Of a DNA stretch of 64,000 bases, positions 3,601-38,871 are shown in pieces. Source of the stretch: Odoribacter sp. (GTDB lineage Bacteria; Bacteroidota; Bacteroidia; Bacteroidales; Prolixibacteraceae). Numbering within the stretch: the first letter of the stretch is position 1; every line of letters starts with the position of its first letter. The stretch covers positions 1-64,000 of the forward strand of contig PNOH01000011.1 in the NCBI GenBank assembly GCA_013824715.1, written 5' to 3'. The notes beneath the pieces are model-generated. The model searched no databases and had not been told where the DNA came from. It saw nothing but the letters and a program-made list of their open reading frames with translations. The position numbers and the translations under genes are program-made.

Positions 3601-5385
3601 ATTTTTATATACCACTACCGTTGCCCCGGTTTCACAGGTTCCTTTTAAAACAATATCATCCGAATAAACCGGCTCTGAGACAATTGGGGTTACTGAAGGT
3701 GAACACAGTACGGTTACGGTAGAACTGCCTGCCATGCACCTTGTGCCTTCCTTGGAAGTAACAAATATCTGTTCATTTATTGCTAATGTCAGACCGGAAA
3801 TAGTCCAGGTAGTTCCTGTTACTGAGACAGTTCCAATTAAGGTACTACCCTTAAAAGCAATTATTACAACAGGAGTCGCTAAATTTCCACATGTTCCTGA
3901 AATACTAGTACTTCCGGCAATAACAGGTGTATGAATAATTGGAGTTGTTGATGGTAATCCACTACTACAATAAAAAGTTTTGGCTGATAAACAGGCTCCA
4001 TTGGAAGCGACTACATAAAAGTTGGTTGGAAGATTTATCCCATTTGTAGCTCCAATGTCATAAGATGTCGCTGAACTACTAGTAAGGCCATTATTTACCC
4101 CAGCCCATATTGTATTATTATCGGCATTATAAACCGTAATTACATTATCAGAAGTTGAATAACTAATGGTTACCACTTTACCAGCTTGTACATTTGTAAT
4201 TACAGGAGCAGGCACAAAAGCACAAGGAACAGCCCCTGCCAAAACAGTTCTTGAACTGCAATTTCCAATGGACTCACCCTTTCCGCTTGCTATAGCCGTC
4301 GCAGTTATGACATCTCCGGTAATCAGTCCTGAAACAGAATTTAATGTCCATACTCCGGAAGTAACTGTTGTTGACCCAAGTAAAATTCCATTTTTTAATA
4401 CTTTTATACTTGTTCCATTAGCCTCGGTAGATGTTCCTGTAATCGTGGTGTTATTGGTATAAATTGGTCCGTTAATTATCGGACAAGCTGTACGGTCGGG
4501 GCAATACTGGCCGGGAGGACAAGGAGTGTAATTATCGATAATTCCCACCATACACAAATCAAAGTCATCATGACAATCAGTACCGCCCAAATCGGATCGT
4601 GAACTGGTATGGACAACACTCGATGCCTGGGCAGCCATGTTATCGATGACCACCATTCGTAAAGGAGTAGAAGTAGTTACTGAGGGAAAAGCGGCAGTTA
4701 TGTGATTAAAATTCACGTAGAAATCATAGAAATAATCCGGATTTCCACATTCAGTTGATAAGGCAACTGATTTTTGATAGTTTGAATGACCGGGATAAGA
4801 ATGAACGATGGTTGCTGATGGTCCGTTAACATCATAGATATACACTCCAAAATTAGTAGCCAAAACCAATTCTATTTCAAAACCCGGATTTCCAGCTCTA
4901 AAATCAGGATCAGCATTTGGACCACTGGAGCCAAATTTTCCGTCAGTATCAATTAAGATACTGTAACTTTTTGAATTGGGGGCCGTTGCACTCATTCGCA
5001 AACGGAAAAGCCAATTTTTAGTGGTGGTATTTAAATAATTCTGAGCAGGATCCTGTACCGAAACCATTTGTTGCACAAAATCAGTAAATCCACAATTCGG
5101 GCCAGGACCTAAATCATTGTCAGGCTCATCAGCAGGAAAAACCAGCGAGACATATGGAATTTCACTTTCCGACTAATCATTGCTTATAAAACCATTGGTA
5201 GTTTTAGAGGAATATCCATCGCCATTTGGATCAAGTACGGTAATTCCCCCTCCAGGAATTGGATCAAAAATCAATCCCGGAGTTTGAGATTTTACTTCTG
5301 TTGCGGAAATGATAAGTATTATTATTGAGAAGAAGATAAACGCAATAGGTCTTTTAAAGAATTTTAAAAGGAAAGTTGACTTCAT
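1..5385 (-). CDS. Giant secreted Ig-like/SprB-repeat surface protein, partial, with one in-frame TAG
   Basis: One reading frame runs from the ATG at 5385 to the left window edge (1795 codons, unfinished). I read every codon: the only stop is a TAG at 5173-5175 (codon 71). Residues 1-34 are a signal peptide ending in VKSQ. They are followed by a domain with DPNGDGY and, past the TAG, SEIPYVSL, SYSILIDTDGKFG and GNPGFEIELVLATNFGVY, a layout I associate with the N-terminus of large Bacteroidota surface proteins. Then come many Ig-like domains and two repeat blocks near the window edge (3 x 79 aa SprB-like, 4 x 81 aa). A C-terminal secretion domain (type IX) would lie outside the window. Likely role is adhesion or cell-surface architecture; this is inference. 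The reading frame after the TAG shows no decay, so it may be a recent nonsense mutation, a readthrough site or a sequencing error. Confidence 0.75.
640..1612 (-). repeat. 81-aa Ig/PKD-like tandem repeats (243-bp period)
   Basis: Four units with an exact 243-bp period (equivalent codons at 841, 1084, 1327 and 1570). Each encodes a domain containing TYSWTGPNSFSSGLQNPSI and GTYSVTVTVNGCTSSAGTT. By hand alignment the unit at 841-1083 differs from the unit at 1327-1569 at only 6 of 243 positions, but from the intervening unit at about 18. Alternate units are therefore the closest relatives, which points to a 486-bp duplication. Confidence 0.85.
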
Positions 5386-35732: not shown

Positions 35733-36458
35733 TTAAAGATTATCTGCATTAAAACATAAACAGCGAATACATTTATCCGATTGACAAGATAAAGAATTGG
35801 CTAATTCGTCCATTTTGAGCAAGCGGATTTCCTTGCCAGTTGCCTCAATAAGTCCCATATTATGAAGCGACCTGATTTCTCGGGAAAGTGATGGCCTGTT
35901 TACGCCAAAAAACTGGGCTAACTCTGTCTGTGATTTTTTCAGGATCAGTCTGTCAGAGTTCTGCTCCCTGGCTTGTGACAGGAGGTAAACAATGAACCGT
36001 TCCTTTAATGATCGTTGAGAAAAGCATGAAATCCGCTGATAAAGGTATGATGCACCTTCTGCAACCTCATTCAGATAGTTCTTCAGAAAAGTCTGATTGA
36101 TTTGCATCATTTTTAAAACCTCGCTTTTTTCAATCTTCAGTACCACTACATCAGTCATTGCAATAACATCCATCGGATAAACGATATCAACTCCCAACAG
36201 AAGGGCCGTTGAAAGGGCCGTTGTACTTTTTTGCTCAACTATCCGAAGAGAATTACCATTTTTACAGGTAATTTCACCTTTAATCACGCCTTTTATCAAG
36301 ATAATCAGGCTCTTCTGATACGAACCATTTCGGATAAGGCATTCATCTTTTAAGTAATGCTGAATGCGATGTACAACCTGACTTAACAAACCGCTGATTT
36401 CAGGAAGGCTAATTCCATCAAAAAGTGCACAATTCTTAATATTTTTTAACTGGTCCAT
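35733..36458 (-). CDS. Crp/Fnr-family transcriptional regulator with C-terminal Cys cluster
   Basis: 241 aa. A cyclic-nucleotide-binding-like beta-roll (about 15-125), a dimer helix, then a Crp-type winged helix with SQTELAQFFGVNRPSLSREI near 180-205. The roll lacks an obvious RxS cAMP-binding pocket, so another signal is likely. The last 17 residues contain four cysteines (C225, C230, C233, C235), unusual for this family and a possible metal or redox site. Divergent from a predicted NO-reductase operon 185 bp away, with a perfect GTAAC-N4-GTTAC palindrome just upstream of its own ATG. This suggests control of that operon and of itself. Confidence 0.85.
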   Translation of the reverse strand: MDQLKNIKNCALFDGISLPEISGLLSQVVHRIQHYLKDECLIRNGSYQKSLIILIKGVIKGEITCKNGNSLRIVEQKSTTALSTALLLGVDIVYPMDVIAMTDVVVLKIEKSEVLKMMQINQTFLKNYLNEVAEGASYLYQRISCFSQRSLKERFIVYLLSQAREQNSDRLILKKSQTELAQFFGVNRPSLSREIRSLHNMGLIEATGKEIRLLKMDELANSLSCQSDKCIRCLCFNADNL

Positions 36459-36471
36459 TATTTTAATGCCT

Positions 36472-36485
36472 GTAACATAGGTTAC
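36472..36485. promoter_or_regulatory. Candidate operator palindrome GTAAC-N4-GTTAC
   Basis: GTAACATAGGTTAC is a perfect 5+5 inverted repeat with a 4-bp spacer, the geometry of Crp/Fnr-family operators. It is 13 bp from the start codon of the Crp/Fnr-type gene and in the divergent region with the heme-copper reductase genes. Confidence 0.5.
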
Positions 36486-36643: not shown

Positions 36644-37216
36644 ATGATTGATTCAAATGTTGTACTTAACGGACAAACAATGGCTTATACATTCTATTGT
36701 ATTGCCATTCTCCTGCTAATGGGATGGTTTGGTCTGAGAATAACCAGAAAAGGGAGCAGTAACAAAGTGATTCCCGGGCTGTTTTATTCTTTTGTTGGTC
36801 TGCTTGTGATATTGGGGGTATCATTGCATATTGTTACCTACAATACCATTCCCTGGGTGAAAATGGACATTAACAGGGCGAATTTAAAGCCTGACAAAAC
36901 ATTCACTATCCTTGTCGAAAATCACAAATTTCAACTTCCTTCCGAAAAAATGATTGTCAGTTGCGATGACAAAGTATTGTTTGATGTCAGTTCTAATGAT
37001 CTCACTTACGGCTTTGGCGTTTTCAGGCAGGACAATTCAATGGTTTTCCAGATGCAGGTGGTGCCTGGTCATAAAAACGACATTCTTTGGAAATTCGAAA
37101 AGCCTGGTGTTTACACCATCCGCTCGACCGAATATTCGGGTCCAAAAGGTATCGCCATGATTGAAAAGGATGTAATTGAGGTGCTTGAATCAAGTGCAAC
37201 TTCAACTAACAAATGA
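36644..37216 (+). CDS. Subunit II of atypical heme-copper reductase, CuA ligands absent
   Basis: 190 aa. Two N-terminal transmembrane helices (about 15-34 and 44-64), then a cupredoxin-like domain with YGFGVFRQDNSMVFQMQVVP and KFEKPGVYTIRSTEYSGPKG, the COX2 layout. The CuA set is gone: the two cysteines are Ser161 and Ser165 (STEYSGP), the first His position is Y/G near 122, and no His follows. Only M172 remains. Electrons therefore must enter another way. Its stop overlaps the ATG of subunit I. This composition is known for some non-canonical NO reductases, but the assignment is inferred. Confidence 0.75.
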   Translation: MIDSNVVLNGQTMAYTFYCIAILLLMGWFGLRITRKGSSNKVIPGLFYSFVGLLVILGVSLHIVTYNTIPWVKMDINRANLKPDKTFTILVENHKFQLPSEKMIVSCDDKVLFDVSSNDLTYGFGVFRQDNSMVFQMQVVPGHKNDILWKFEKPGVYTIRSTEYSGPKGIAMIEKDVIEVLESSATSTNK

Positions 37217-38871
37217 CTCAATTAATTAAACTTAAAAGAAAACCTATGAATTTTACAAATACATTGCTCAACGGGGAACAAGGCTTATTCAAGGAAAAAA
37301 CCTTAACCCCCATGCAAAAACTAACGCTTCGTTTTGTCGTTGTCGGGTTGATTTATTATGGTCTTGCCGTAATCGAAGGTATGATCATGAGATTGTACCA
37401 AGTCGCGCCACTGCCAACCATCGAAACAAGCCAGTTCTTCGCCATAATGACGGCACATCCACTCGTTGGAATTTTCGGTTCGACCTATTCGATTGTTTTC
37501 GGGGCATTTTTATTCCTGGTCCCGTTCCTGATGAAAAAACCTCTCTGGAGTTTTAAACTTGCAAACTGGACCTTTTTATTGATTACAATAGGCACATTAA
37601 CTTTCTGGTTAGCTGGTTTTATTTCTGAATATGCACCGCTTTACACTTTATACTGGCCATTGCCAGCCGATTTCAGCCAGTTCAGCCCTCTGGGCGGCGC
37701 TGTTTTTATCGCAGGCATTGCGCTCGTTATGGTCGGAGCAGTATTTTTTGTGATCAACATTTTCAAAACTATCGTTTATACTCCCGAAGGCTGGGAAAAA
37801 CAGCCTGCAAGCGCCCTGTTCGCATCAGCTATCGGTTATGATGGCCTTCGTAACCTCTTCTCAAAAAAGAAGGTTAGGAAAGAACATTTAGTTTCTTTAC
37901 CAGTAGCTGCTATCGCACGTGGAACTATAGATGTTGCATTAAATGCAGGTATTATTTTATTCACCGGTGTACTTATTCTGGTTTACATGGTTAGTGCATT
38001 GCTTGGTTTCGACCTGAAAGAAACGGCAATCGATGCACTTCTGTATAAAAACTGGTTCTGGTGGGGGCTCGATTTAATTGCCGATGGGCTGGTCCTTATC
38101 TTTGTAGCCGGAACCTGGTATTTGCTGGCGATGATGATTACCGGAAAGAATTTGTATATGCAGAATATTGCCAGGGCCGCTTTGCTGGTCGAATTAGTCG
38201 TATCGTGGACGGTATGGTCTCACCATTTGCTTTCAGATCAGGCACAACCGATCATGCTTAAAATTGTTTCCGGAGAGTTGGTTACGGCCTTCGAGCTAAT
38301 TACCCAGGGACTGGCATTCTTCATCACTCTGGCCACTTTGTGGAGCGCACGTCCTTTAAAAATGACCAATGAATTAAAATTCTTGCTCGGTGGTCTTACC
38401 GGATTTGCACTGGCTGTTCCGGCAGGTATTATGCAGGCTGATATGGGTTTAAACCGGATTTTGCACAATACCCAGTGGATTATCGGGCCTCATGTACATG
38501 TCGCTATTTTGGTGGGATTAACAATGACTCTTTATTCAGCTATTTACGTTTTGTTCCCTGTTCTGACCAATGGAGCAAAACTGTACAGCCAGAAGTTAGC
38601 CAACTTCCATTTCTGGGCTCATCTGTTAGGCGGTATTGGTATGGGTGCATTCATGGGAATGGCTGGATTGAAAGGTATGCTACGCAGGACCATATACCTG
38701 GATGGCGAATTTAACCTGTATATGATCCTGGCCGCGATTTGCGGAACACTTCTGCTGCTTGCCTTCCTGGCCTTCTTTTACAACATTGTGATGAGCGTGG
38801 GGATTAATGGGGTGATTGGAATTTTCAAGCCTTCCAAGCTAAATAAAAAGGTTTTATTACCTACTGAATAA
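37213..38871 (+). CDS. Heme-copper oxidoreductase subunit I, NO-reductase-like (gNOR/sNOR-type)
   Basis: 552 aa, about 13-14 membrane helices. H82 (IMTAHPLVG) fits the low-spin heme ligand of helix II. H337-H338 (WSHHLLSD) fit the two CuB histidines of helix VII. H427 and H429 (IIGPHVHVAI) fit the heme ligands of helix X. On helix VI the usual GHP histidine is missing: the sequence is FWWGLDLIADG, placing D287 (or D291) there. Also, the Tyr cross-link of oxidases is not seen. Carboxylate substitution of a CuB His is a trait described for gNOR/sNOR-type NO reductases. Probable membrane NO reductase for detoxification or respiration; a divergent oxidase remains possible. Confidence 0.72.
   Translation: MTQLIKLKRKPMNFTNTLLNGEQGLFKEKTLTPMQKLTLRFVVVGLIYYGLAVIEGMIMRLYQVAPLPTIETSQFFAIMTAHPLVGIFGSTYSIVFGAFLFLVPFLMKKPLWSFKLANWTFLLITIGTLTFWLAGFISEYAPLYTLYWPLPADFSQFSPLGGAVFIAGIALVMVGAVFFVINIFKTIVYTPEGWEKQPASALFASAIGYDGLRNLFSKKKVRKEHLVSLPVAAIARGTIDVALNAGIILFTGVLILVYMVSALLGFDLKETAIDALLYKNWFWWGLDLIADGLVLIFVAGTWYLLAMMITGKNLYMQNIARAALLVELVVSWTVWSHHLLSDQAQPIMLKIVSGELVTAFELITQGLAFFITLATLWSARPLKMTNELKFLLGGLTGFALAVPAGIMQADMGLNRILHNTQWIIGPHVHVAILVGLTMTLYSAIYVLFPVLTNGAKLYSQKLANFHFWAHLLGGIGMGAFMGMAGLKGMLRRTIYLDGEFNLYMILAAICGTLLLLAFLAFFYNIVMSVGINGVIGIFKPSKLNKKVLLPTE

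Follow-up and report, generated by a model that had tools for sequence, protein, structure and literature searches.

A predicted gNOR-type nitric oxide reductase with two subunits, encoded beside an HcpR-like regulator gene in a bacterium resembling Prolixibacteraceae

Arrangement of the locus

The window (the whole 64-kb stretch of DNA that was analysed) contains two adjacent genes that predict subunits II and I of a heme-copper superfamily reductase, and the two open reading frames (ORFs) overlap by 4 bases. A regulator gene is transcribed divergently from the reductase genes, leaving an intergenic stretch of 185 bp (Table 1). The ORF coordinates and residue numbers in an earlier sequence-only reading of this DNA agree with the ORF list. 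Met12 of subunit I is conserved in 109/109 homologous ORFs that reach it, so the real start of the gene may be 33 bases downstream. Locus L046, in a record titled Prolixibacteraceae bacterium, encodes a subunit I that is 97% identical to the window protein, which places the host near Prolixibacteraceae by this protein. A defence-model scan gave no matches.

Table 1. Genes, promoter box and predicted active-site positions at the reductase locus
Feature	Position in window	Strand	Description or basis
HcpR-like Crp/Fnr-family regulator gene	35733-36458	-	241 aa; PF13545 and PF00027
GTAACATAGGTTAC	36472-36485	.	Exact match to HcpR2 consensus GTAACnnnnGTTAC
Subunit II gene	36644-37216	+	ORF; cupredoxin domain lacking CuA ligands, plus two transmembrane helices (predicted)
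Former CuA loop S161-T-E-Y-S165	37124-37138	+	Invariant in 99/99; on CuA Cys positions
Subunit I gene	37213-38871	+	552 aa; catalytic heme-copper-superfamily subunit; PF00115 E 6.5e-54
H82, low-spin heme ligand position	37456-37458	+	Alignment and conservation
D287, helix-VI CuB His position	38071-38073	+	hhalign and conservation
D291, i+4 from D287, Tyr/Glu position	38083-38085	+	Conservation; position by spacing, not hhalign
H337-H338, metal ligand pair	38221-38226	+	Alignment and conservation
H427 and H429, heme ligand positions	38491-38499	+	Alignment and conservation

Active site of subunit I

The homologue set comprised 113 subunit I ORFs from 112 sources, which are not all independent genomes because the same contig appears twice in places (e.g. 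L005 and L046). The sequence-only reading had H82, H337, H338, H427 and H429 retained in subunit I, with an Asp where the CuB His of helix VI should be, and both claims hold across the family. H82, D287, D291, H337, H338, H427 and H429 are all found in each of the 108 ORFs (94 distinct sequences) that cover the seven positions, and D287 and D291 are both Asp in 110/110 ORFs reaching them. Neither residue is covered by the remaining three ORFs, all of them fragmentary (L024, L045 and the second piece of L022).

An hhalign comparison of 38 family members with seven A-type subunits (probability 99.7, E 6.5e-26) put D287 on the CuB His and opened a 4-residue gap directly after it, so that the oxidase Tyr was paired with L295 and not D291. 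This pairing of the Tyr counts against the explanation preferred below. MAFFT, run with A-type, cbb3 and cNOR sequences, placed L286 on the CuB His at the cost of a one-residue gap. A His at the helix-VI CuB position was looked for and is absent, and the helix-VI His and Tyr of A-type oxygen reductases are both missing from subunit I by MAFFT and hhalign. If helix VI is unbroken, the i+4 distance from D287 would put D291 at the Tyr/Glu position, matching the H-x3-E-G of cNOR; hhalign disagrees, but a gap within a transmembrane helix is unlikely, and D291 would fall on the oxidase Tyr if the helix is ungapped. Aligned by eye without gaps, FWWGLDLIADG of the window protein lies beside WWYIVHLWVEG of cNOR, and both the His and the Glu of the cNOR segment are matched by Asp. 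This comparison is by eye because the cNOR profile alignment (probability 4.2) took in the C-terminal part alone, leaving the D287 region outside. The K and D channel residues of A-type oxidases correspond to A368 and L111 in subunit I (hhalign, A-type channels), and proton pumping would be unlikely since the A-type residues are absent at these aligned positions.

Fold and phylogenetic placement of subunit I

The AlphaFold model of subunit I (pTM 0.82, mean pLDDT 77.5; pLDDT 56 and 66 in blocks 281-290 and 291-300) has the oxidase fold, with Z scores of 29.3 to 25.6 to cytochrome oxidases in the best 50 matches listed. No NOR structure is among the 50 matches listed in either of two fold comparisons, which excludes nothing. 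In a 19-row tree, the family forms its own clade with 100/100 support beside the A-type sequences used; placement within the oxygen reductases, which would have spoken against the sequence-only reading, did not appear. The reference sequences contain no B-type, qNOR, eNOR, sNOR or authenticated gNOR sequence, support is weak at the deepest fork (77/64), and a warning of long branches that meet was issued.

A quinol-fed oxygen reductase, with low activity or a scavenging role, would agree with the NCBIfam search, in which subunit I matched oxidase models only and all below cut-off, and with oxidases being the nearest folds listed, as any superfamily member could give. This assignment is nevertheless very improbable. 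The third metal-ligand position has no His, neither of the candidates for the Tyr position (D291 and L295) is Tyr, and the clade is fully supported. The genome also already has two other PF00115 subunits, one carrying an oxidase helix-VI motif and the other a cbb3 motif, and no member beyond these and the window's own was found in it.

Subunit II

Compared by profile with solved structures, the window's subunit II comes closest to CuA domains of other subunit II proteins, including the Thermus ba3 type (9 chains, E 1.7e-5 to 9.6e-4). The model, composed of two helices and a beta domain, has a Z score of ∼11 to CuA domains, and Pfam COX2 gave a weak match in 26 of 44 subunit II members. Profile, Pfam and model thus identify the second subunit as a cupredoxin and not a heme c protein. 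Unlike the Thermus ba3 CuA subunit, the window protein has its CuA ligands replaced, as the sequence-only reading had recognised for Ser161 and Ser165 in place of the cysteines. In the profile alignment, Y122, S161, S165 and G169 occupy four CuA ligand positions (His, Cys, Cys and His, in that order), while M172 and E163 remain. Y122, S161, E163, S165 and G169 are invariant in 99/99 aligned subunit II sequences and M172 is present in 96, this count leaving out 7 of 106 subunit II ORFs that have no GQT motif in the first 40 residues. Such strict conservation of a loop without CuA argues against decay. Loss of the CuA ligands, together with the lack of a cytochrome c domain, makes quinol the most likely electron donor.

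In locus L039, the gene directly before subunit II (3774-4229, - strand) has a 152-aa product that aligns to the first part of COX1 (E 1.9e-7, below cut-off), and the cluster to which this protein belongs is present in 7 loci.

Regulator gene and divergent promoter

The best match to the regulator among solved structures is 9day (E 5.6e-22), which is P. gingivalis HcpR, an NO-responsive heme protein, according to an excerpt of PMC12750200. In the phmmer alignment, the HcpR heme ligand Met68 is replaced by Ile in the window regulator, and this counts against the explanation preferred below. The window regulator carries NRPSLSR at residue 187, with R-P in the recognition helix and, as placed by eye on CRP numbering, the Pro at position 181 that goes with HcpR2. 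The HcpR2 site is GTAACnnnnGTTAC and is linked to Pro at recognition position 181, and in two cyanobacteria hcpR orthologs are arranged divergently to hcp and norB (excerpt of PMC1274295).

The exact HcpR2 pattern occurs once in the window, inside the divergent promoter, and shuffling the 185-bp intergenic stretch produced an exact box in 27 of 200000 cases. With up to one mismatch allowed, the box is found at 3 places in the window against 0.98 expected. The exact pattern was detected in 4/100 upstream regions against 0.04 expected, three of the four coming from the window itself and from one close relative that is present twice, and in L113 it is upstream of a homologous operon with no recognised regulator at -2. 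Across the window's own genome, the pattern is not enriched (4 places versus 10 for a reversed control), and one of these four adjoins the reductase operon. This also counts against the preferred explanation, as does the absence from this genome of any TIGR01703 match for hcp. The NO-response role that the sequence-only reading gave to the Crp/Fnr gene gains from the HcpR match and the exact HcpR2 box and loses from the missing Met68 and hcp. Because Met68 is lost, hcp was not found and the pattern is not enriched in the genome, the regulator is named HcpR-like and not HcpR.

A cysteine cluster (C225, C230, C233 and C235; 35754-35786, - strand) at the C-terminus of the regulator, not a feature of HcpR/HcpR2, is also present in the near-identical relative L005/L046. 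Elsewhere in the genome, an exact HcpR2-type pattern was seen between rhodanese-like and Crp-type ORFs (L132) and just after an ORF resembling cytochrome c maturation genes (L135), with these names assigned by eye.

An Rrf2-type gene precedes subunit II in 65 of 112 loci when assigned by clustering at position -2. The count varies with method, as a motif rule gave 52/100 and a three-Cys rule 38 ORFs. The one Rrf2-type member tested scored above the cut-off for the Rrf2 superfamily and far below that for NsrR. A dyad, ATACCT-N2-AGGTAT, found in 7 of 52 regions upstream of Rrf2-type operons and in 0 of 5 shuffled sets, is a possible Rrf2 site. In L074, a protein with DUF6448 and a hemerythrin domain is encoded near the operon (1346-2404), and the protein cluster to which it belongs is present in 6 loci.

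Comparison with known NO reductases

The sequence-only reading gives Asp in place of a CuB His as a trait of gNOR/sNOR-like enzymes; for gNOR, the literature matches listed contain no confirming text. In an excerpt of PMC8756737, Table A4, which names Hemp and Gennis 2008 as its source, has D as the active-site residue of gNOR, N for sNOR and CuANOR, Q for eNOR, and E for cNOR and qNOR. The same table gives gNOR 0 proton channels, and the text places a cupredoxin in its second subunit. gNOR is described as quinone-oxidizing and non-electrogenic (excerpt of PMC8906906), and a two-gene gNOR, Damo_1118-1119 of Ca. M. oxyfera, has been reported with a suggested role in nitrosative stress (PMC6094997). 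The excerpted part of PMC11388526 treats sNOR, gNOR and nNOR as proposed enzymes related to B-family oxidases, and this kinship of gNOR fits the matches of subunit II to CuA domains. Excerpts of PMC5492636, PMC12569097, PMC10359470 and PMC13370916 leave the picture unchanged.

The window enzyme resembles gNOR (NorGH; Sulfurimonas, Sulfurovum, Persephonella and Ca. Methylomirabilis) in its two subunits, in the cupredoxin nature of subunit II and, with D291 placed by spacing, in its Asp active-site residue, and the absence of CuA fits the quinone oxidation reported for gNOR. It differs in its host, which resembles Prolixibacteraceae, and in its HcpR-like regulator; no paper among the literature matches listed brings gNOR together with HcpR. 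With membership drawn from features compared by published description, the window enzyme would work like gNOR and very probably is one.

The enzymes sNOR, eNOR and bNOR (CuANOR) are also NORs described as B-family-related, but their listed residues are N, Q and N where the window enzyme has D. Asn, expected for sNOR at the Tyr position, and Gln, expected there for eNOR, are found neither at D291 (by spacing) nor at L295 (by hhalign). Of the gNOR/sNOR-like character proposed by the sequence-only reading, the gNOR part is supported by features (Asp, cupredoxin subunit II, no CuA) and the sNOR part is not, Asn being the residue listed for sNOR in the PMC8756737 excerpt. The H-x3-E-G of cNOR (NorBC) helix VI is mirrored by D-x3-D-G in the window protein. 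However, cNOR retains both the His and the Glu, and its gene has a cytochrome c gene on one side and NorQ/NorD-type genes on the other; no such neighbours were recognised beside the window operon, without a dedicated NorQ/NorD search.

Distribution

Within the same family, subunit I at ≥75% identity is present in 21 of 140 genomes, the window's own and fragments included. Two of the genomes (G012 and G083) have two copies each. In a phylum sample, 11 of 395 genomes, own included, gave matches at E 1e-40, and all 11 hold close members. A search of named genomes (tblastn, E ≤1e-3) found 320 stretches encoding relatives, with identities of 77-97% in the best 80 of the 320. Titles among these best 80 are mostly Bacteroidetes, Bacteroidota and Bacteroidales, with Prolixibacteraceae and Ignavibacteria-type titles also present, and single records titled Neomarinimicrobiota, Anaerolineae and Acidobacteriota. 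For the last, a sample of 297 genomes from that phylum gave eight matches, four being close members, that genome included, and four weak ones of another type. The four close members are 77-79% identical to the window protein and lie in DNA of 61-67% G+C. High likeness in GC-rich DNA of another phylum suggests lateral transfer, with a binning error as the alternative. Among viral contigs, 22 stretches matched a pattern and none encoded a relative.

These matches also bear on whether the family is a separate, unnamed group of NORs that shares its Asp with gNOR through convergence and not descent. Matches in the first phylum sample were all close, those in the second were either close or weak and of another type, and neither sample linked the family to a named gNOR, which is what such a group would give. 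Yet the published gNOR traits that can be checked agree or are inconclusive, with none contradicted, and a family encoded in so many stretches of named genomes is likely to be in published surveys already. Separate origin is thus quite improbable, and assignment to the gNOR type is retained.

Nitrogen genes in the genome

The genome that includes the window has an NrfA-like gene (E 2.2e-168), which is below a strict cut-off reached by none of the 140 family genomes. No match to NirK was found in this genome, and NosZ over cut-off was found neither in it nor in any of the 140 family genomes; the NosZ matches below cut-off fall at the C-terminal end of the model, where its CuA domain is. Cytochrom_D1 gave two weak matches (E about 1e-4), one of which passes the Pfam cut-off when joined with in-frame neighbours. 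These results answer the check for denitrification genes elsewhere in the genome that the sequence-only reading proposed.

The NrfA-like gene, taken with the lack of a NirK match and of NosZ above cut-off, favours NO detoxification, and the simplest reading is a module that removes NO in a bacterium that possibly ammonifies nitrite. Across the family, presence of the reductase shows no association with nrfA (10/21 versus 66/119, p 0.64), which counts against this explanation. Use of the enzyme for NO respiration and energy gain, and not for protection, would suit the full NosZ found in 3 of 12 relatives tested, in view of which detoxification need not be general. For the window's host, respiration is unlikely given the NosZ and NirK results and the weakness of the two Cytochrom_D1 matches.

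Proposed function and significance

Taken together, the locus probably encodes a quinol-fed, two-subunit NO reductase of the gNOR type, with NO reduction inferred from the features above. Subunit I would hold a low-spin heme (H82 and H429) and a high-spin heme (H427), with a second metal ligated by H337, H338 and D287, and D291 adjacent. Two NO would be converted to N2O at this heme-metal site using electrons supplied most likely by quinol. The adjacent HcpR-like protein probably turns the operon on via the 36472-36485 box under NO or nitrite stress, and the purpose would be to clear NO, whether formed alongside nitrite reduction of the NrfA type or coming from neighbours.

A more tentative possibility, itself doubtful, is that the second metal is non-heme iron held by a 2-His/2-carboxylate site (H337, H338, D287 and D291) in a heme-copper fold, with an HcpR-like switch whose NO sensing does without the heme ligand known from HcpR and perhaps uses the C-terminal cysteine cluster. 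This ligand set is of the kind in soluble mononuclear iron enzymes, and no chaperone gene was recognised beside it. If true, it would represent a separate route from copper oxidase to iron NO reductase.

A quinol-fed gNOR-type enzyme, the preferred reading, is of a known but little-studied kind, and the detail added here lies in a CuA loss that is strictly conserved, in the distribution of close members and in the pairing with an HcpR-like regulator gene. With this pairing, the response of such an enzyme to NO can be addressed directly, and the Asp-Asp site is a test of how much alteration the active site tolerates. Standard annotation can label bNOR and sNOR as oxidases (excerpt of PMC11388526), and because enzymes of such a kind can be annotated as oxidases, the capacity to form N2O is undercounted.
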